From: Candidatus Obscuribacterales bacterium
Lineage (GTDB): Bacteria > Cyanobacteriota > Vampirovibrionia > Obscuribacterales > Obscuribacteraceae
Assembly: GCA_019744775.1 (NCBI GenBank)
Contig: JAIETZ010000001.1
Span: 310,001 to 374,000 of the forward strand
Reading direction: 5' to 3'
Length of the DNA: 64,000 bases
Shown: positions 3,440 to 11,852 of the stretch, piece after piece
Layout: every line of letters begins with the position of its first letter
How positions within the stretch are numbered: the first letter of the stretch is position 1
The notes under the pieces: generated by a model
Databases searched by the model: none
What the model saw: the letters and a program-made list of their open reading frames with translations, nothing else
What the model was told of the DNA's origin: nothing
Translations under genes and position numbers: made by a program

Positions 3440-3562
3440 TTAAAACTCGGCGACGAGTCCGAAGCAGGCAATCAATACGATGCAGGCAAAGTAAAAGGCG
3501 AAGAACCATCCCCAGCGGATGATCATTTCAATTTCGCTTACTTTTGGTTGTGCAGCAGCCAT
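3440..3562 (-). CDS. 40-residue single-helix membrane protein, last gene of the respiratory operon
   Basis: A short frame beginning MAAAQPKVSEIEMIIRWGWF, followed by one strongly hydrophobic helix (about residues 17-37) rich in aromatic residues and two Cys, ending in VAEF. Its ATG directly follows the TAA stop of the MvhD-like gene with no spacer (TAAATG), so translation is very likely coupled. Size and position are like those of the tiny single-helix subunits common in cytochrome bc and cbb3 complexes. I recognise no named family. It could be an accessory subunit stabilising the cytochrome b or iron-sulfur subunit (inference). Confidence 0.65.
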   Translation of the reverse strand: MAAAQPKVSEIEMIIRWGWFFAFYFACIVLIACFGLVAEF

Positions 3563-3976
3563 TTACTTAGCCTCCGTTATGCTATTTAGGGTTTGCAGAT
3601 GTCCGACAAACTCCTTAGCTTCCGAAATAAAACGCTTGGTTTGCAATCTGGATAACCAGAGAGCGACAACACGTCTTCTATCGACAGTTTTCTTCAAACC
3701 TGGTGGACGCTCGCCCAAAAGGCGTTCGCGAATCATCTTATTGCCTTCGCGATAATAGCAATCGCCAATCTGGCAGCCACAAACAATTACGCCCTCAGCA
3801 CCGGCTTTCAGAGCTGCTTCAATCATCAAAGGTTGAATCATGCCGCTGCAGGGGAACTTAATGACCGTAACGTCAGGTGCATCTTTCAGGATACCCTTCT
3901 CATCCATCTCGCGATCAAGATCAACTGCTCTTTCACAGATGAGGGTGATTACTGTCTTCTTTTTTGTCTCGACCAT
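3563..3976 (-). CDS. MvhD/FlpD-family iron-sulfur electron-transfer subunit
   Basis: 137 residues matching the methyl-viologen-reducing hydrogenase delta subunit family (PF02662): PCSGMIQPLMIEAALKAGAE followed by VCGCQIGDCYYREGN. In known complexes this [2Fe-2S] protein passes electrons between a redox partner and a heterodisulfide-reductase-type flavoprotein. Here no hydrogenase or HdrA gene is nearby; the gene sits between a cytochrome b-ferredoxin fusion (23 bases upstream) and a 40-aa membrane protein. Of the usual N-terminal CxxC only the first Cys (C14) is kept; the equivalent of the second is Ala. A basic insertion (KKTVDRRRVV) near residues 95-104 is also atypical. AGGAGT precedes the start. 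It is likely cytoplasmic and docked on the membrane complex (inference). Confidence 0.88.
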   Translation of the reverse strand: MVETKKKTVITLICERAVDLDREMDEKGILKDAPDVTVIKFPCSGMIQPLMIEAALKAGAEGVIVCGCQIGDCYYREGNKMIRERLLGERPPGLKKTVDRRRVVALWLSRLQTKRFISEAKEFVGHLQTLNSITEAK

Positions 3977-3999
3977 GATAAGACCGACTCCTGAAATAA

Positions 4000-5151
4000 C
4001 TAAGACTGAGCTGCTGCTTTGATTTGGTTGGAAACATCGCTATCGAGCAAATTGGGTAAATCAATTGCATCGAAGGCACAGGCGCCAACGCAAAGTCCGC
4101 AGCCGGAACAACGATATGACTTAACTGTCGCCAGAAGTTTGAAACGACTGCCGGCAGGTGCCGGCACCATATCAATTGCTTCATAGGGGCAATCTTTATC
4201 GCAAAGCGAACAACCGGTACATTTTGTAAGGACTACTTCTGCTGTTTCCACAGGCTTGGTTCTTACAAACCAAGGAACTGCCGTGAACAGGATTACACCG
4301 CCAATCATCAACGCCCAGAAGAATCCTAAGGACATCTTGGTCATCATCCAGTAAGGCCAGAGGAAGAACCAATCTATTTCAAAGGATGTTGGGGTTTGAG
4401 TTAACTGAGCCATTGTTCCGCTTTGAATTGGGAACATGGCGACAACAGCCAGAATAATAGCTACAAGGATGTAGTTAATTACAGGCGGTGGTGTCAAAAC
4501 CGGACGTGCCATACGCACATAGTGAACCCACAAGCCGAAAAGGAGCATGAAGGACAAACCGATGTGAATAAAGAGGTAGTTGGATAAGGTGAGGTTGGTT
4601 ATTTCCTTGCCGTTGATAAACCAATCTTTCAATGGCTGACCAATAATAGGCAAAGCCTCAAATGCCGACACTGTCATACGAGTAAGCAAGAGTGAGCGTT
4701 CATCCCAAACAAGGTAATAGCCTGTTTGACCAATGAAGAGCACAGCTAATAGAAGAACTACTCCTGATACCCACTGCACCCAACGATACTGTCTATAGCG
4801 GTCGGTAAACCAAACTCTTAACACGTGCAAGATGATAGTGAGTACCATAGCGTCACCGGCATAACGGTGCAAACCGCGAAACACAGCTCCAAATGGAATT
4901 GTCTTGGTTATGTAATCAACTGATGTCCAAGCGTTAATAAGTCTTTCAGACGCATAAGCATTATCAATGGTTGGAATGTAGTAAGCGAAAAGCAAAAGAC
5001 CCGACAAAAAGAGCACCCACAGATAAAACTGTGGCAGCGCACCGTGGTAATAAAACGGGTTGTACTTGCTTGTTGCTATAACGTTAGTCCAGTGCTCAAG
5101 CCACAAGGTAGCCTTGTTTAGCGGATCTGTGTATAGCTTATGCATCACCAT
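4000..5151 (-). CDS. Cytochrome b (b6-type N domain) fused to a 2x[4Fe-4S] ferredoxin
   Basis: 383 residues. Residues 30-300 form a cytochrome b with all four heme ligands in two His-x13-His pairs: H95/H109 (LHRYAGDAMVLTIILH) and H196/H210 (FIHIGLSFMLLFGLWVH). The position of the Qo PEWY motif reads EIDWFF (about 258-263). After the last helix a C-terminal ferredoxin domain carries two clusters, C311xxC314xxC317xxxC321P and C348xxC351xxC354xxxC358. Such a fusion would give heme b a soluble-side iron-sulfur outlet or inlet, next to the MvhD-like gene. Start MVMHKL follows AGGAACAAACAAT; a second ATG two codons on is possible. It lies in the operon between a small membrane protein and the MvhD-like gene. 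Confidence 0.93.
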   Translation of the reverse strand: MVMHKLYTDPLNKATLWLEHWTNVIATSKYNPFYYHGALPQFYLWVLFLSGLLLFAYYIPTIDNAYASERLINAWTSVDYITKTIPFGAVFRGLHRYAGDAMVLTIILHVLRVWFTDRYRQYRWVQWVSGVVLLLAVLFIGQTGYYLVWDERSLLLTRMTVSAFEALPIIGQPLKDWFINGKEITNLTLSNYLFIHIGLSFMLLFGLWVHYVRMARPVLTPPPVINYILVAIILAVVAMFPIQSGTMAQLTQTPTSFEIDWFFLWPYWMMTKMSLGFFWALMIGGVILFTAVPWFVRTKPVETAEVVLTKCTGCSLCDKDCPYEAIDMVPAPAGSRFKLLATVKSYRCSGCGLCVGACAFDAIDLPNLLDSDVSNQIKAAAQS

Positions 5152-5211: not shown

Positions 5212-5559
5212 TTATTTCAACGGTAGAACTGTTTTTTCCTCTGCGTCTTCACGACCGATTACGGCTATGCCAATCGCAGCAGAAATTAGAGCTAATGCCA
5301 TGAAAAAGCCGTAGACGTAATATGGAGCATTTACGTCATCTTTGAGATACGAAAAATTGTTGTTCACGAAGGCAATTGCCGGTTGAAGCAGTCCGGAAAT
5401 TCCCAGGGTATCGGCAAATTGCTTACCCCAATCGGAGCCGGGAATAGATGGAGTCAAAAGTCCGAATTCGGCCCAGGGCATCATAAAGGTCATGCCCAGA
5501 CAACCGGCGGCGAAGATAAGGACCAAAACTATCGGCAAAAATCTGTCGCGAGCGCTCAT
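5212..5559 (-). CDS. Small two-helix membrane protein of the respiratory operon
   Basis: 115 residues with one hydrophobic segment near the N-terminus (FLPIVLVLIFAAGCLGMTFM) and another near residues 82-103 (YVYGFFMALALISAAIGIAV), joined by a polar loop of about 50 residues that is probably periplasmic. AAGC at residues 17-20 resembles a lipobox but lacks a basic N-region and sits within a full-length helix, so a membrane-spanning protein is more likely. Its ATG overlaps the TGA of the upstream gene (ATGA), showing translational coupling. No family is recognised; the conserved place between two cytochrome b genes suggests a complex subunit. Confidence 0.75.
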   Translation of the reverse strand: MSARDRFLPIVLVLIFAAGCLGMTFMMPWAEFGLLTPSIPGSDWGKQFADTLGISGLLQPAIAFVNNNFSYLKDDVNAPYYVYGFFMALALISAAIGIAVIGREDAEEKTVLPLK

Positions 5560-5879
5560 CGAATACCTCCGCTAGCCTGACTGTTAACCCGTCTCATTAA
5601 ACGCACCTGCATTTTCTCGAAAAGCTCGATGCGCTTTTTCAAAGTACCTTTGTCTTTTTCCTCAAAGTAAATCCAGTATGACTGGACACCCAAAAGAAGA
5701 ATCGTAAACACTGTTCCTGAAGCGAGCAAAAGCCAATCGGCAAATACCGCGGTTTCATGAATTTGTCGCCATCCGGCAAAGAACCAGGAAAGCGTAATGA
5801 CGGAGGCTACAAAGGCAGTAAGACGAAATGCCCAGTGGACTTTTCGTGGATTTATTGCTTGGACTTCCTTCTGACTCAC
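5556..5879 (-). CDS. Small two-helix membrane protein of the respiratory operon (GTG start)
   Basis: 107 residues starting MSQKEVQAINPRKVHWAFRL. The GTG at 5879 is chosen because GGAG lies six bases upstream and it avoids the 100-base overlap with the preceding cytochrome b gene that a longer frame would need. Two hydrophobic segments (about 18-35 and 48-68) are followed by a charged C-terminal helix (YFEEKDKGTLKKRIELFEKM), which may be a short coiled coil on the cytoplasmic side. It begins 20 bases after the large cytochrome b and ends in an ATGA overlap with the next gene. Function unknown; probable accessory subunit. Confidence 0.75.
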   Translation of the reverse strand: MSQKEVQAINPRKVHWAFRLTAFVASVITLSWFFAGWRQIHETAVFADWLLLASGTVFTILLLGVQSYWIYFEEKDKGTLKKRIELFEKMQVRLMRRVNSQASGGIR

Positions 5880-5898
5880 GATTTCTCCAATTGCAATG

Positions 5899-7689
5899 CT
5901 ACGACGCTTGTGCCGAAGCTTGTGTTTGTGTTGCTTGAACCTGACTGGATTTCTTACACCACCACATGGTGCCGAAACCAGCGACCATAACAACAGCGCC
6001 GGCAATCATCCAAACCCAATCAAGATCGGGCACCGGCATAGGATATGGCGGGTTGCCTGGAATTGGTTGGGCCAAAACTGACGTGCCGATACCTTCCATG
6101 CGATCGACATAAGTGGCGTAGTCAAAACACCAGCGGTTGGAGACCATGAAGTCAATCAAGCCGTTGTACTTGATACCTTCAATAAATGTCGGCGCAGCGG
6201 CAAAAATGCCGTCAAGTGGTGTCGACTGTTTGCAGATGTCGGCAATCTTAGTTACAACTGCTGGAATATCTCCACCTTTGGCGATTATTTCGTGGTAGTT
6301 CCAGTAAGGAATACTGCCTTTAACTCCTTCACGTACAAGCTCCTCGGCAGCTTTAGCATTGTCGCCCATAAATGGTCTGAATGCTGCGTACGTCCAAGCT
6401 TGTGTGATTGGCGACATGAACATTTCTGTTCTCGCCATGAAGAAATAAACAATGGCAACAACAGTCTGAACAAGTCCAACTATGCCCATAACCATGGCAG
6501 CAAATGCACCTTTGGCCCTTTGAACCAAATTGGTTTCTTTCCAGATGAGCGCTAATTGCAAAAGAACGCCGATATCGATCATTAGGTAAAGACTGTCACG
6601 CCAGTACGGCGGATCATTGTGGATGTTGGCGATGTTGACAATGATGAGGAACGAGAAAACAATCCAGTTAACAAGTCCCATAAGTGCCACCCAGAAAATA
6701 ACCGGTCGTTTGTTGATGTCCTTTTCCGGTCCTGTCAGCCAAACATCAATGAACGGCAAAAGAACAACAGACAATGGAATTAACATCGTAATTTCTGTAG
6801 CTACAACCGGCTCGAGGTACTTATACATTTGATACAAGCCCAAGAAGTACCAGTCAGACAAAATAGGCAATGGCGTTACATCTGGATTGGAACGTCCACC
6901 AAGAGCCGCCGGCAAAATAATTGCCACAACCGCAATCATCAAAGTGACAATAATGCGCTTGGTCCAATTGATATTAATACGCTTGTAACCTGTCTTATAG
7001 AAATACAGCTCAACAAAGATGAGCGGTATTAATGAGAAGGCTAAGTGCAATGAGAAAAAGCGCGTAATTGTTTCTTGAGTAATAGCGCCGCCGGCACCCA
7101 ATAGAAATTCAGCCGTATTCCAACCCATGTGCATGGACTTAACCAGAGGCAAGTAGAAATCACCCATGCCCGGGAATTGGTCCATATAGGTTGGGAATGT
7201 GGCGAACACTTTTGTAGCCCAAAATGCGCGCTGGTTCCAGATGAGCAGATACCCAGTCAAACCGGAATACATAGATAGTAAGAGCGTTACAAGACCAATA
7301 GCAATGTTGAATTCCTTGCCTGGTTTGTAGTCTGCATTGATAAACATACGGAACATACGGATAGTGGCTGCAATAATCATCGCGTCCGCGCCGTATTTGT
7401 GCATGCCTCTCACGACGTTACCGAAAAGGATGCCGTGCTGAATGTTCAAGATTGAGTCATAGGCAGCCGCTTTGGTCGGGATGTACCACATAATCAAAAC
7501 GAGTCCGGTGAACATAACGATCATCCAGACCAGGTAGAAAATTGAACCGATGGCATAAAACGGGTTGGTCTTTGCCTCGAGTTGGTAATGTTCGTCAAAG
7601 AGATCAATGTTGGCTATGCGTGTTTTAAGCCAATCGTTGGTTGCAACTAATGCCCCCATTAGCCCCGCATTTTTAGTTGTACTAGGCAA
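5899..7689 (-). CDS. Large divergent cytochrome b subunit lacking one heme ligand pair
   Basis: 596 residues with a cytochrome b core and a long C-terminal extension. H97 (RGMHKYGADAMI) and H215 (FFSLHLAFSLIP) match the first His of each canonical pair, but the partners 14 residues on are R111 and Y229. By analogy with bc1/b6f the bL ligands are kept and the bH ligands lost. The Qo motif is SDWY (278-281) in place of PEWY. Several more helices follow, then an approximately 130-residue soluble segment without CxxCH, and a C-terminal helix (WVWMIAGAVVMVAGFGTMWW). The frame starts at a TTG overlapping the Rieske stop, with GGAGG upstream; ATG at codon 11 is an alternative. Confidence 0.9.
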   Translation of the reverse strand: MPSTTKNAGLMGALVATNDWLKTRIANIDLFDEHYQLEAKTNPFYAIGSIFYLVWMIVMFTGLVLIMWYIPTKAAAYDSILNIQHGILFGNVVRGMHKYGADAMIIAATIRMFRMFINADYKPGKEFNIAIGLVTLLLSMYSGLTGYLLIWNQRAFWATKVFATFPTYMDQFPGMGDFYLPLVKSMHMGWNTAEFLLGAGGAITQETITRFFSLHLAFSLIPLIFVELYFYKTGYKRININWTKRIIVTLMIAVVAIILPAALGGRSNPDVTPLPILSDWYFLGLYQMYKYLEPVVATEITMLIPLSVVLLPFIDVWLTGPEKDINKRPVIFWVALMGLVNWIVFSFLIIVNIANIHNDPPYWRDSLYLMIDIGVLLQLALIWKETNLVQRAKGAFAAMVMGIVGLVQTVVAIVYFFMARTEMFMSPITQAWTYAAFRPFMGDNAKAAEELVREGVKGSIPYWNYHEIIAKGGDIPAVVTKIADICKQSTPLDGIFAAAPTFIEGIKYNGLIDFMVSNRWCFDYATYVDRMEGIGTSVLAQPIPGNPPYPMPVPDLDWVWMIAGAVVMVAGFGTMWWCKKSSQVQATQTQASAQAS

Positions 7690-8254
7690 TTCCCCCGGCC
7701 TCCAGTGATAAGACTGCTATCTTGTCTCCGTCCTTTTTCAGCTCAAAGCGTCTTGGTGGTCTAGGAGCAGGACCCGATACCACCTTGCCGCCCTGGGCAA
7801 TATCATAAACGCTCAAGTGACACGGACAAGCAAATACTGGTCCGTTTGGCTTATAGTTATAGCCTTTAGCGCACTCTTCAGGATCTTTGACGAAGTTGAA
7901 CACGCAGCCTAGGTGCGGGCAAATGCGGCTGTAAGCAACCTTTTCACCATCAGGTAGGCTGACGATAAATCCTGGAATCTTACGAACTTCCTGACCTTCC
8001 GGGTTGTATTCCTTGTAGGTCTGTTCAAACATGAAGGGGATACATGTCCAAGCATCCGGAAAATCTGAATCCTTGAACTCAACTTCCTTCTTCGGCTTTG
8101 GTTGATCGGATGGACCGAGCAAATCCAACGGCTTAATCGTCGGTCTCAAAAAGCGCAATAGCGGTGAAGCTACCAAACCAAAGGTAAATGCCAATGGAAT
8201 GGCGGCTGCTGTCTTGAGAATAAGTCTTCTTGATGTTCCCTCGGTCATTTTCAT
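7682..8254 (-). CDS. Rieske [2Fe-2S] protein
   Basis: About 190 residues. The cluster motifs CPHLGC and CPCHLS are both present with the usual spacing for a bc-type Rieske protein. The N-terminus TSRRLILKTAAAIPLAFTFG is a twin-arginine type membrane anchor, as expected for Rieske proteins inserted by Tat. The chosen ATG follows AAGGA by four bases; a second ATG two codons later has more typical spacing. It would accept an electron from quinol at the Qo site and hand it to cytochrome c. The neighbours are a diheme cytochrome c upstream and the 596-residue cytochrome b downstream, with an 8-base overlap with the latter. Confidence 0.95.
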   Translation of the reverse strand: MKMTEGTSRRLILKTAAAIPLAFTFGLVASPLLRFLRPTIKPLDLLGPSDQPKPKKEVEFKDSDFPDAWTCIPFMFEQTYKEYNPEGQEVRKIPGFIVSLPDGEKVAYSRICPHLGCVFNFVKDPEECAKGYNYKPNGPVFACPCHLSVYDIAQGGKVVSGPAPRPPRRFELKKDGDKIAVLSLEAGGIA

Positions 8255-8291
8255 CACATCCTTTGAGCACGTTACTATTGCTACTCTATCC

Positions 8292-9143
8292 CTATTTCTT
8301 TTCAATTGCTGATGGGTTCTGCTGCGAAGCCGGCACATTTAAGCCAACCGCTACCGTAGGCTCGTTGGAGCTATGGAAGTGGCGTACAAATTGCACAAGC
8401 TTCTTGATGTAAGCCTCATCAAACTTCACGTTCTTGGCTCTGTCTTGCTTATTCAAGAAGTTGGGCATGCCTTCCCATTTAATGCCATTGGCGATGTGAT
8501 CCCAAAGGACATCATCAGTTCTGTCGAAGAATCTATTGAACTGGTGGAAGTTAGCAGGCACCGGCTGAAGAGCAAAGTTCTTAGTAAGAGGTCCATCTCC
8601 GTGTCCACGCTTACCGTGGCAAACGGCACAGTTGGCGCCAAATACTGCGTCCATATCGTCAATTTCTTTCTGAGCCAACGGCGGCACAGCGATTGAACGT
8701 GTGTAGAAAACCAAATCCCATACTTGCTTACGCGAACAGGCGTCCTTCAAAGATGGGTGGTTGACCTCATGTCCGGCGACAATTGCCGAACCTTCAGCCA
8801 TTGGTTTGCCATAAGTCAAGAAATAGTAAAGATCTAAAGGCTTTTGCTTGTGGACCATAACTTCGTTGCTCAAATCAACGGTAGTTTTGTTGGCCACGCC
8901 TTTACCGTCAGCCCCATGGCAGGCAGCACACTGTTGTTTTTCATAGACGACCTTACCATCCGGAATGGACGGGTTATCATCCGGGAAAATGACCACATCG
9001 GCAGCTTCTGTAACCTGACGGCTGGCAATTTTGTCATCTGCGCCTTTGAGAGTTACTTGTTCAGTACAACTGGACAAGGAAATAGCTGCCGGCAAGGCAA
9101 CTAAAAGGCTTAGTGTTTTCCACGAAAAGGTCTTGTTCAACAT
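8292..9143 (-). CDS. Diheme cytochrome c lipoprotein
   Basis: 283 residues. The start MLNKTFSWKT gives a lipoprotein signal with lipobox LSSC (C26), so the mature protein is probably anchored to the periplasmic face. Two class I cytochrome c sites are visible: CAACHG (C72, C75, H76) and CAVCHG (C172, C175, H176). It lies between the cbb3 oxidase genes and the Rieske gene and is the natural electron carrier between the cytochrome b complex and the oxidase (inference from context). The ATG is one base after the stop of the 59-aa gene (TAAGATG). Confidence 0.93.
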   Translation of the reverse strand: MLNKTFSWKTLSLLVALPAAISLSSCTEQVTLKGADDKIASRQVTEAADVVIFPDDNPSIPDGKVVYEKQQCAACHGADGKGVANKTTVDLSNEVMVHKQKPLDLYYFLTYGKPMAEGSAIVAGHEVNHPSLKDACSRKQVWDLVFYTRSIAVPPLAQKEIDDMDAVFGANCAVCHGKRGHGDGPLTKNFALQPVPANFHQFNRFFDRTDDVLWDHIANGIKWEGMPNFLNKQDRAKNVKFDEAYIKKLVQFVRHFHSSNEPTVAVGLNVPASQQNPSAIEKK

Positions 9144-9144
9144 C

Positions 9145-9324
9145 TTAATATCCAAAGAAAGGTATCCATGAAATAGAAGCCCAAATGACGATGATGGCAA
9201 AAGCCACAATCAAGAAGAGAGGCGGTGGTCCTTCGCCGATTCGATATTCGGCGACTTCTTCGTAGTGTTCAGTTGGTTGTACAGCATCTGCTGCTGCGCC
9301 TTCTGGCTTTTTCTTTTCTGCCAT
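9145..9324 (-). CDS. 59-residue single-helix membrane protein
   Basis: A short frame starting MAEKKKPEGAAADAVQPTEH, with an acidic/polar N-terminal half, a PPP turn, then one hydrophobic helix (LFLIVAFAIIVIWASISWIP) and a C-terminal FFGY. AGGCGGG lies just upstream, and the stop is one base before the cytochrome c start. In position it resembles the tiny CcoQ/CcoH-type subunits of cbb3 oxidases, but I cannot assign it to either family by sequence. Codon use is like that of its neighbours. Confidence 0.72.
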   Translation of the reverse strand: MAEKKKPEGAAADAVQPTEHYEEVAEYRIGEGPPPLFLIVAFAIIVIWASISWIPFFGY

Positions 9325-9546: not shown

Positions 9547-10467
9547 TTAGTTACCACCTGAATGAGGTTCCCACTCTTGTTCTGTCAACTTGGGTAAGTG
9601 TACTTGTCCAACTTTGTTCAATTGATCAAGTTTGTCGACAGTGATTTCCTGGTTTTGCGGCAGAGTCTTCAAATATGCCACCAGGTACCAGCGCTCTTCT
9701 TCAGTCAAAATTTCGTTGAAGCGCGGCATGCGAGTACCAGCCACACCTTCGCTCACGCGATAGAACCAGAACGCATCCGGATACTGCTTGTAAAACGCTC
9801 TTGTGAAGTTAGCAGGCTTTTTCTCCAGTGAAATGGAGTTTGGTCCGTTGCCTTCACCTTCAAGTCCGTGGCAAGCAGCGCAGTTTTGCGTGTAGATACC
9901 GCGACCGGCATTAGCTGCCGCATCAGAATTGGTATCAACGGTCTTTTTCGGTAAGTAAACAAGTTCGTATTCAGCCGGTGCTTCCACATATGCATGAACT
10001 GTTCTCTGGTTACCCAATGTTTGAATGTAGGAAACCAAGTCGTTCATGTCACGATTGGACAAGTGGCTGAAACTCGGCATGATTGAACCGGGCTTAACAG
10101 CACGCGGGTTAATCAAGTGAGCCTTTTGCCATTCCGAGGGAAACTTGCCGCCCTCGTTGGTCAGATCCGGACCGGTTCTGGCTGTGCCTAATTGGTGCGG
10201 TGTTTCCCACACATAGTCACCAGCTTTAACAAGCGGTCCATATCCTCTATCTTGCAAACGCGTAAATTGCGTGTGGCAATAGAAGCAACCTTCACGCACG
10301 TAAATTTGACGACCTCTAGCCGGGTTGACCTCAGAGGTTTTTACGTATTTGTTGTAACTCTTAGACGGTACCGGATTAAAGAGCACCATCGGCAGAAGTA
10401 CAGTAGCTGTAATAATCGTAAAAAAGGTAATTACGATACCAATTGCACCAAGGCGATAGCCGTTCAT
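9547..10467 (-). CDS. ccoO: CcoO-type membrane cytochrome c with an added C-terminal cytochrome c domain
   Basis: 306 residues: an N-terminal membrane anchor, then the CcoO signature REGCFYCHTQFTRLQDRGYG (heme c ligands C61, C64, H65; distal Met probably M130 in GSIMPSF). A second class I domain follows with CAACHG (C196, C199, H200) and GTRMPRF. Canonical CcoO is monoheme and the diheme CcoP is a separate gene; no ccoP is present here, so this fusion may replace it. The start ATG overlaps the ccoN stop (TAATG). Confidence 0.9.
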   Translation of the reverse strand: MNGYRLGAIGIVITFFTIITATVLLPMVLFNPVPSKSYNKYVKTSEVNPARGRQIYVREGCFYCHTQFTRLQDRGYGPLVKAGDYVWETPHQLGTARTGPDLTNEGGKFPSEWQKAHLINPRAVKPGSIMPSFSHLSNRDMNDLVSYIQTLGNQRTVHAYVEAPAEYELVYLPKKTVDTNSDAAANAGRGIYTQNCAACHGLEGEGNGPNSISLEKKPANFTRAFYKQYPDAFWFYRVSEGVAGTRMPRFNEILTEEERWYLVAYLKTLPQNQEITVDKLDQLNKVGQVHLPKLTEQEWEPHSGGN

Positions 10468-11852
10468 TAGGCCTTCACCTCCGCCGTCTTAGCATCGGCT
10501 GCTTTTGCTGCCGGTGTGTACAACGACTTGAATGCATTGTAGGCAAATATACATTGTCCGAGCACAATCATGACTCCACTGACTGCTCTTAGTCCCCAGT
10601 AAGGACGAATCTGCAGTCCCCATTGATCAACTGGCACACCGAATGCCCAACCTGCTGATTGAATCAAACCGGCAATGGTGAGTGACACCATCATCAGCAA
10701 GAATCCTAAAAACTTCAGCCAGTAGTGAGCACGAATAAGACCTTGGCTGTGCCAGTCGCGCCCAGTAATTCTAGGCAGACCGTAATAAATAGCCGAGGTC
10801 AAAATAAAGGAAAACGTTCCAAGCAATGCCAAGTGAGCGTGTCCGACTACCCACTGAGTAAAGTGCAGGTACCAGTTGACCCAACGTGTTGCTTGAAATG
10901 GTCCTTGCACGCAAGTAACTAAATAGAACATGCAAGAAGTAACGGCAAAACGCAATGGCATATCTGTGACAACCTGTTGCCACTTGCCCTTCATGGTCAT
11001 GAAGAAGTTTGTCAACACGGTTAAAACAGGTACCAAAAGAAATACCGATGAGATAACGGCAATTGCTTTGAGCCATTCAGGTACAGGCGATTGCAAAATG
11101 TGGTGAGTACCAGTCGGTGCATAGAAAAGTGCAATACCCCAGAAGCCCAACATGGAAAGACCGTGGCTATATAAAGGAGCATTGGTCAGTCTTGGCAAGA
11201 GGTAATACATCATGCCGACACCAACTGTCGTGAACCACATACCAAGGATGTTGTGTCCGTAGAACCAACCGACAATAGCATCGTTCAAACCAGGCAAGGC
11301 AACGAAAGTACGCTGACCGATGATGTAAACCAGTGGAAACCAAAATAGTGCGCCCAGGAAATACCAGAGCGATACATATAGTTTCTTGACCTTTCTGTTT
11401 ACGACGGTCATATAAACGTTGGCGGCAATTGTGACAAGCGCAATTGCTACAAGCACATCGAGTACGGCGCCTAGTTCGGCGTATTCACGACCTTCTGTCG
11501 AACCATTGATCAAAGTACAAAAGGCACCAACCATCACGGCATTCCATGCCCACATAGTAAAGTTGCCCAGGCGCTCCGACCAGAGCTTTGTCTTGGCCAG
11601 AGACGGCACCATGTAATACATGGCCCCAACATAACCCATGGACAGCCAGCCTACGGCGACTGCGTTAACGTGCCACATGCGCAAGTGTGGAAAAGACAGT
11701 TGTGGAATGTTGTGGATGAGGTCTGGCATGGAGAATTCGAGTCCCCCAAGCATCCCTGCTCCCATTCCTAAAATTGACCACCAGATGGCGGACAGTATGA
11801 AGTTTCTGGCAGCGCTGCCTTCACGATTGCTTAAAACGGCGTCTAGTAACAT
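10467..11852 (-). CDS. ccoN: cbb3-type cytochrome c oxidase subunit I
   Basis: 461 residues with about 12 membrane helices. Ligands expected for a C-type heme-copper oxidase are present: H61 (RMWHVNAVAVGWL) and H340 for low-spin heme b, H338 (VVGHAH) for heme b3, and CuB ligands H200 (GHN), H250 and H251 (THH). The C-family catalytic tyrosine is present six residues before the HH pair (Y244 in FYAPTGTHH), which separates it from NO reductases. It is the first gene of the 12-gene operon; GGGG lies five bases before the ATG. It would reduce oxygen with electrons from the c-type cytochromes encoded downstream. Confidence 0.96.
   Translation of the reverse strand: MLLDAVLSNREGSAARNFILSAIWWSILGMGAGMLGGLEFSMPDLIHNIPQLSFPHLRMWHVNAVAVGWLSMGYVGAMYYMVPSLAKTKLWSERLGNFTMWAWNAVMVGAFCTLINGSTEGREYAELGAVLDVLVAIALVTIAANVYMTVVNRKVKKLYVSLWYFLGALFWFPLVYIIGQRTFVALPGLNDAIVGWFYGHNILGMWFTTVGVGMMYYLLPRLTNAPLYSHGLSMLGFWGIALFYAPTGTHHILQSPVPEWLKAIAVISSVFLLVPVLTVLTNFFMTMKGKWQQVVTDMPLRFAVTSCMFYLVTCVQGPFQATRWVNWYLHFTQWVVGHAHLALLGTFSFILTSAIYYGLPRITGRDWHSQGLIRAHYWLKFLGFLLMMVSLTIAGLIQSAGWAFGVPVDQWGLQIRPYWGLRAVSGVMIVLGQCIFAYNAFKSLYTPAAKAADAKTAEVKA

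Follow-up and report, generated by a model that had tools for sequence, protein, structure and literature searches.

In dimeric bc complexes the two bL haems lie close together, and helix F of cytochrome b terminates on the n-side of the membrane. Whether electrons pass from one bL to the other in normal operation has been argued from engineered mutants, and a 2013 paper still treats the issue as controversial (PMC4330944). In the cross-inactivated bc1 built from fused Rhodobacter cytochromes b, one half has only the Qo site and the other only bH and the Qi site, and this enzyme still turns over via bL-bL transfer (PMC4330944). All of the asymmetric bc complexes that we found in the open-access literature are engineered ones. 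An n-side Fe-S path to the cytoplasm has been proposed for Rieske/cytochrome b complexes of Kuenenia stuttgartiensis that have a NAD(P) oxidoreductase, and these were modelled as homodimers with an FAD/NAD(P) subunit (PMC12954380). A complex III/IV combination in which petB/petC-like genes adjoin a type C oxidase is described for Obscuribacter and other Melainabacteria (PMC6349859), and complexes I to IV are named, with no further detail, in the paper on the Vampirovibrio genome (PMC4451040). The passages of the former paper on which we draw annotate the complex as b6f and make no mention of haem loss, a ferredoxin or MvhD. Nor did the open-access literature yield any account of the haem loss, of Qo and bH being split or of the MvhD link; a search of that scope does not assure priority.

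The window, by which we mean the whole 64,000-nucleotide stretch of a Candidatus Obscuribacterales genome that was analysed (class Vampirovibrionia, judging from its relatives), carries a complex III/IV operon on its minus strand, spanning 11852-3440. The first gene is ccoN, encoding C-type haem-copper oxidase subunit I (10467-11852; COX1 E 9e-83, and a match to the ccoN model), and it is followed by a fusion of a CcoO-like subunit and a cytochrome c domain with two CxxCH motifs (9547-10467; FixO and Cytochrom_C), a c-type cytochrome that also has two CxxCH motifs (8292-9209; Pfam and motif reading) and a Rieske [2Fe-2S] protein (7682-8338; PF00355, with CPHLGC and CPCH motifs). Then come two cytochromes b, separated by two small membrane proteins. 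The one adjoining the Rieske gene is the partner of the Rieske protein; it has 596 residues (5899-7689) and is called CB here; the other, CBF (4000-5151, an ORF of 383 aa), is a cytochrome b with a fused C-terminal 2[4Fe-4S] ferredoxin. CBF and an MvhD/FlpD-type protein (3563-3976, 137 aa; PF02662 E 3e-20) form a pair at the end of the operon, and directly downstream of the MvhD gene lies a translated ORF of 40 aa with a single TM helix (3440-3562), which is a possible extra subunit. The small membrane proteins each have two predicted TM helices and a conserved position. The one at 5212-5559 has 115 aa (helices by hydropathy), gave no family match in Pfam and profile searches and has equivalents in L059, L113 and L118; the start of the other (5556-6005) is uncertain. 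In Obscuribacterales, CB is also extended at its C-terminus by a long region in which additional helices are predicted; the CB of Caenarcaniphilales lacks this region.

With bc1 and b6f this gene set shares a Rieske protein encoded together with cytochrome b, the cytochrome b fold, the bL ligands, a Qo motif in CB and c-type cytochrome acceptors. It differs from both in that its two cytochromes b are dissimilar: one lacks the bH ligands, and the other carries a ferredoxin fused to it. A further difference from b6f is the absence of Cys35 of b6, the covalent attachment point of haem cn, from both CB (most often A, T, S or Q) and CBF (Y). The original prediction was made for the CBF-MvhD pair and read it as a stand-alone device between quinol and a soluble carrier. 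Both genes are real, and the exchange between haem b and the cytoplasm that was suggested for them is well supported, as set out below, although the interpretation as a whole holds up only in part. The prediction overlooked the Rieske gene and the second cytochrome b in the same operon, however, and a Rieske gene next to a cytochrome b without bH changes the mechanism. The CB/CBF pair is the more important feature of this locus than CBF-MvhD alone.

The composition predicted for CBF, a 383-residue cytochrome b with both b haems and two C-terminal [4Fe-4S] sites, was borne out, as were its position and strand. Pfam places Cytochrome_B at residues 26-213 (E 4e-24) and 4Fe-4S dicluster domains at residues 306-363, within a ferredoxin of about 305-365, and the protein has six TM helices. 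Across 59 aligned rows, with identities as low as 30%, neither the four haem-ligand histidines (H95, H109, H196 and H210) nor any of the eight ferredoxin cysteines varies. An AlphaFold model (pLDDT 88.1, pTM 0.85) consists of six long helices and then the ferredoxin; helices A to F superpose on mitochondrial cytochrome b (5xte_J 28-313, Z 25.2, rmsd 2.6, 256 residues). Because the ferredoxin follows helix F, which in bc complexes ends on the n-side, homology places it in the cytoplasm beside bH, and a periplasmic ferredoxin, the topology that would have spoken against the original prediction, was not the outcome.

The neighbouring gene does encode an MvhD-type protein: the FlpD domain covers residues 9-130 (Pfam, E 3e-20), and the solved MvhD 5odc_D is matched with E 1.5e-14. 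C14, C43 and C68 are kept in 68/68 rows and C73 in all 67 rows that have a residue there, and these four cysteines are consistent with the one [2Fe-2S] cluster that had been expected. The CBF ferredoxin and MvhD are collinear with the C-terminus of HdrA2 (profile positions 571-642 and 650-774), a family in which ferredoxin and MvhD follow one another in a single chain in the same order as in CBF-MvhD. The arrangement thus resembles both the HdrA2 C-terminus and the HdrA-MvhD contact of 5odc, a 2[4Fe-4S] ferredoxin followed by MvhD. Unlike in HdrA2, there is no HdrA flavin domain here and the ferredoxin is attached to a cytochrome b.

Evidence for contact between the two proteins comes from other phyla. 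Eleven relatives, from Alpha-, Gamma- and Deltaproteobacteria, Spirochaetes and Chloroflexi, fuse the ferredoxin-cytochrome b to a further C-terminal region, and ten of these score with the MvhD model. That all three parts, cytochrome b, ferredoxin and MvhD, occur in nature as one fused protein is gene-fusion evidence for contact between CBF and MvhD. One fusion was modelled (pTM 0.82); its cytochrome b domain fills the list of structural matches, and no solved HdrA or MvhD fold is among the matches listed. Taken with the n-side ferredoxin and the HdrA2 order, the fusions lend good support to the suggestion that electrons pass between haem b and a cytoplasmic partner, specifically for bH.

The haem ligands were compared in an alignment of 73 CBF and 68 CB with one b6 and two ordinary cytochromes b from the same genome. 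The CBF clade contributed another 12 proteins, of which 11 are true fusions and the last is a CBF ORF with extra residues in its call. A few genomes are represented twice in the counts (e.g. L037/L106, L038/L120, L039/L103). We number by b6, where bL, the haem on the p-side, is ligated by H86 and H187, and bH, on the n-side, by H100 and H202. The bL positions are His in every aligned row, CB and CBF alike. The bH positions are His in all CBF, fusion and reference rows, whereas in CB position 100 is Arg (59 sequences) or Lys (9) and position 202 is Tyr in all 68. In the window's own proteins, CB keeps H97 and H215 for bL and has R111 and Y229 where CBF has H109 and H210. Ligands for two bis-His b haems are thus present in CBF and incomplete in 68/68 CB. 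The Qo motif is divided the other way. CB has a PEWY-type motif, LPILSDWYFL (SDWY), invariant in 68/68. The CBF motif is degenerate: the Asp is kept, the first PEWY residue is lost, and the Tyr is replaced by Phe or Leu, rarely by Trp or Ile (73/73). The losses of ligands and motif are complementary: CB keeps Qo and loses bH, and CBF keeps bH and loses the canonical Qo motif. Two more, ordinary cytochromes b with four His and PEWY occur elsewhere in the same genome (L040 and L041, G000:C13), one of them adjoining narGHJ-like genes.

Loss of the bH ligands does not in itself say that the site in CB is empty. CB might hold an n-side haem in an unusual way, with Tyr ligation aided by Arg or Lys as in catalase, giving a complex of four b haems of which one is high-spin. 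The Tyr is invariant and the Arg/Lys nearly so, and the n-side half of CB is not less conserved overall than that of CBF (permutation p 0.55); for these reasons the two residues look selected rather than drifting, and relaxed conservation across the whole n-side half was rejected on the same test. The window's own CB also retains Gly at the bH-side helix C position, which together with the undiminished n-side conservation leaves some room for an unusually ligated haem. Against this, 45/68 CB have another residue in place of the helix C glycine that packs against the haem on the bH side (A35, G23, C8, S2), while the bL-side glycine is invariant, and no cytochrome b four-helix bundle with Tyr ligation of a haem is known to us. 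We therefore regard a Tyr-ligated haem in CB as very improbable.

The two genes also travel together. In a scan with one genome per species, the CBF gene turned up in all parts of Vampirovibrionia, Obscuribacter phosphatis (L072) and Vampirovibrio chlorellavorus (L113) among them, and the order CB, CBF, MvhD is the same wherever the contig is long enough. In all 68 loci CB and CBF share a strand, and a median of about 32 bases separates CBF from MvhD. Among 53 Obscuribacterales genomes, 47 have both genes, four have neither and two, both fragmented assemblies, have one only; where they co-occur across the order, both are single-copy. A search of viral contigs gave no match. Two MAG records titled Chloroflexi and Proteobacteria (L054, L088) have CBF loci that share 93% and 67% identity with that of the window, and are probably mis-binned contigs or mislabelled records.

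In a maximum-likelihood tree that includes long branches, CB forms one clade (100/99) and CBF plus the fusions another (100/99). These separate clades indicate that CB and CBF are not recent duplicates, and that the loss of bH in CB probably happened once. The distinct histories would suit two homodimeric complexes encoded in one operon, one a quinol oxidase made of Rieske and CB that has no Q-cycle, the other a module of CBF and MvhD linking a cytoplasmic reductant and quinone, and so would the CBF relatives of other phyla that work without Rieske. However, a CB homodimer would have no visible exit for the bL electron, the losses in CB and CBF are complementary, and the genes are almost never apart, which makes two separate complexes improbable.

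Instead, the gene content suggests a CB/CBF heterodimer, and these sequences make a strong case for wiring between the two. We propose a bc complex in which CB and CBF stand where there are normally two copies of one cytochrome b, and which would feed the co-encoded C-type oxidase. CB would contribute haem bL, the working Qo site and the contact with Rieske, and would lack bH; CBF would contribute its own bL, the only bH and an Fe-S wire running from 2[4Fe-4S] to the MvhD [2Fe-2S] and on to the cytoplasm. Quinol would be oxidised at the Qo site of CB, sending one electron through Rieske and cytochrome c to oxygen. The other would leave CB through its bL, enter CBF at the bL there and go on to bH of CBF, where it would meet the cytoplasmic port. 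This low-potential electron would have to cross from bL to bL, because CB has no bH and the sole bH is on CBF. The proposal draws on gene content, ligand losses, the motif split, co-occurrence, the n-side ferredoxin placed by homology and the MvhD fusions; the heterodimer, bL-bL transfer, an n-side quinone site, the direction of flow and the donor are what we infer. For the wiring as such, with Qo and the only bH on different subunits, a bL-bL crossing and a cytoplasmic Fe-S port, we consider the chances about even. That it constitutes a natural heterodimeric bc complex across the class, with obligatory bL-bL transfer and bH wired via ferredoxin and MvhD to a cytoplasmic carrier, seems to us slightly less probable than that.

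CB and CBF look, by analogy, like a natural version of the cross-inactivated bc1, in which Qo sits on one half, bH and Qi on the other, and the route between them runs via bL-bL; that enzyme is a laboratory construct, however, and has no cytoplasmic port (PMC4330944). The operon is natural and widespread and seems to offer the electrons no alternative, so the bL-bL question could be tested in an evolved enzyme. If the proposal is correct, a Rieske/cytochrome b complex with a built-in ferredoxin-side entry exists in the sister lineage of photosynthetic Cyanobacteria, and ferredoxin input to b6f has long been discussed in Cyanobacteria.

The port could work in either direction, as the original prediction also allowed. 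Flow inward would take electrons from a cytoplasmic reductant through MvhD and ferredoxin to bH, so that n-side quinone would be reduced by one Qo electron and one cytoplasmic electron, a hard-wired, ferredoxin-assisted Q-cycle. MvhD is usually an entry adaptor, as in HdrABC-MvhAGD systems. For this reason, and because outward flow opposes the membrane potential and the operon has no gene for a NAD or flavin subunit, we lean weakly towards net inward flow. It would, on the other hand, bypass the proton-pumping complex I encoded in the genome, and outward flow better explains why CB lost bH. The asymmetric wiring with inward direction included we consider somewhat unlikely, and we put it forward tentatively.

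The same asymmetric complex with its port facing outward would bifurcate quinol at Qo and pass the second electron via bL, bL and bH to ferredoxin, MvhD and a cytoplasmic acceptor. A CB without bH removes the ordinary exit of the Q-cycle and would force the electron outward, which would account for CB shedding this haem, and the genome lacks NuoF but encodes complex I core subunits (cluster L145). The Kuenenia complexes with cytoplasmic NAD(P) oxidoreductase subunits were proposed to act alike, their authors deeming inward flow wasteful, and they share with CBF a proposed n-side Fe-S path (PMC12954380). The window's locus differs from those of Kuenenia in its MvhD adaptor and fused ferredoxin, in lacking a flavoprotein gene and in having one cytochrome b without bH. 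Outward electrons would moreover run against the membrane potential toward low-potential clusters, and acceptors much below about -200 to -350 mV would be unreachable (an estimate from textbook menaquinone potentials); the lack of a NAD or flavin subunit in the operon also weighs against an outward port, which we consider somewhat unlikely.

A soluble partner was sought genome-wide. It had been correctly noted that no hydrogenase or HdrA lies near the CBF-MvhD pair, and the absence of HdrA extends to the genome: the HdrA2 model matches only the CBF and MvhD genes, through its C-terminal ferredoxin and MvhD parts, plus short fragments with FAD or Fe-S motifs, and an FAD-binding HdrA core was not found. 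There is one FlpD in the whole genome and no NuoF, and neither the window operon nor the relatives listed contain a NAD(P)/FAD oxidoreductase gene. Of the HdrA-like or NAD-binding flavoproteins for which the original prediction proposed a search, neither HdrA nor NuoF turned up, and an HdrA or NADH module was rejected as the partner. AprA/AprB-like (adenylyl-sulfate reductase) genes occur near the CBF-MvhD end in four Caenarcaniphilales genomes (L036, L037, L038 and L039). As a general partner of MvhD, AprAB was rejected, the two full-length FAD_binding_2 proteins of the window's genome resembling NadB and SdhA by neighbourhood and sequence. With HdrA, NuoF, a second FlpD and AprAB considered, neither a donor nor an acceptor for MvhD came to light. 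A Hyf/group-4-hydrogenase-like cluster (L144:7624-14888, G000:C1) lies beyond the window, at a distance of about 22-29 kb from the operon, with a 49-kDa-like subunit, an Fe-S protein and NuoL/N/H-like membrane subunits.

The fused relatives have a setting of their own. A change from Tyr to Gln in the haem-copper subunit has been described for eNOR (PMC8756737). In at least six fused loci the haem-copper subunit has the motif GHSxQQxN or one close to it, so that Gln stands in place of the cross-linked Tyr of oxygen reductases. CuA subunit II is encoded as well; its CNEYC...H..M motif is intact, so a CuA-less quinol oxidase was rejected. The flanking DNA examined at fused loci contained no Rieske motif. 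These eNOR clusters of other phyla (L121-L131) resemble the window's locus in their cytochrome b-ferredoxin-MvhD with four haem His, which falls in the CBF clade; they differ in having a single fused protein, no Rieske found and an adjoining oxidase with the Tyr-to-Gln change. The fusion may be an unrecognised subunit of eNOR systems. Fusions near eNOR-like oxidase genes (GHSxQQxN, CuA subunit II) were seen in L121, L122, L123, L128, L129 and L131; SCO genes occur near those of L121 and L129, and L121 has two fused copies in tandem. In a Chloroflexi fusion (L125:8001-10085) the MvhD-like part lacks the cluster cysteines, and the fusions of L122, L125, L129 and L130 end in an extra C-terminal domain that resembles the small downstream proteins of other fused loci.
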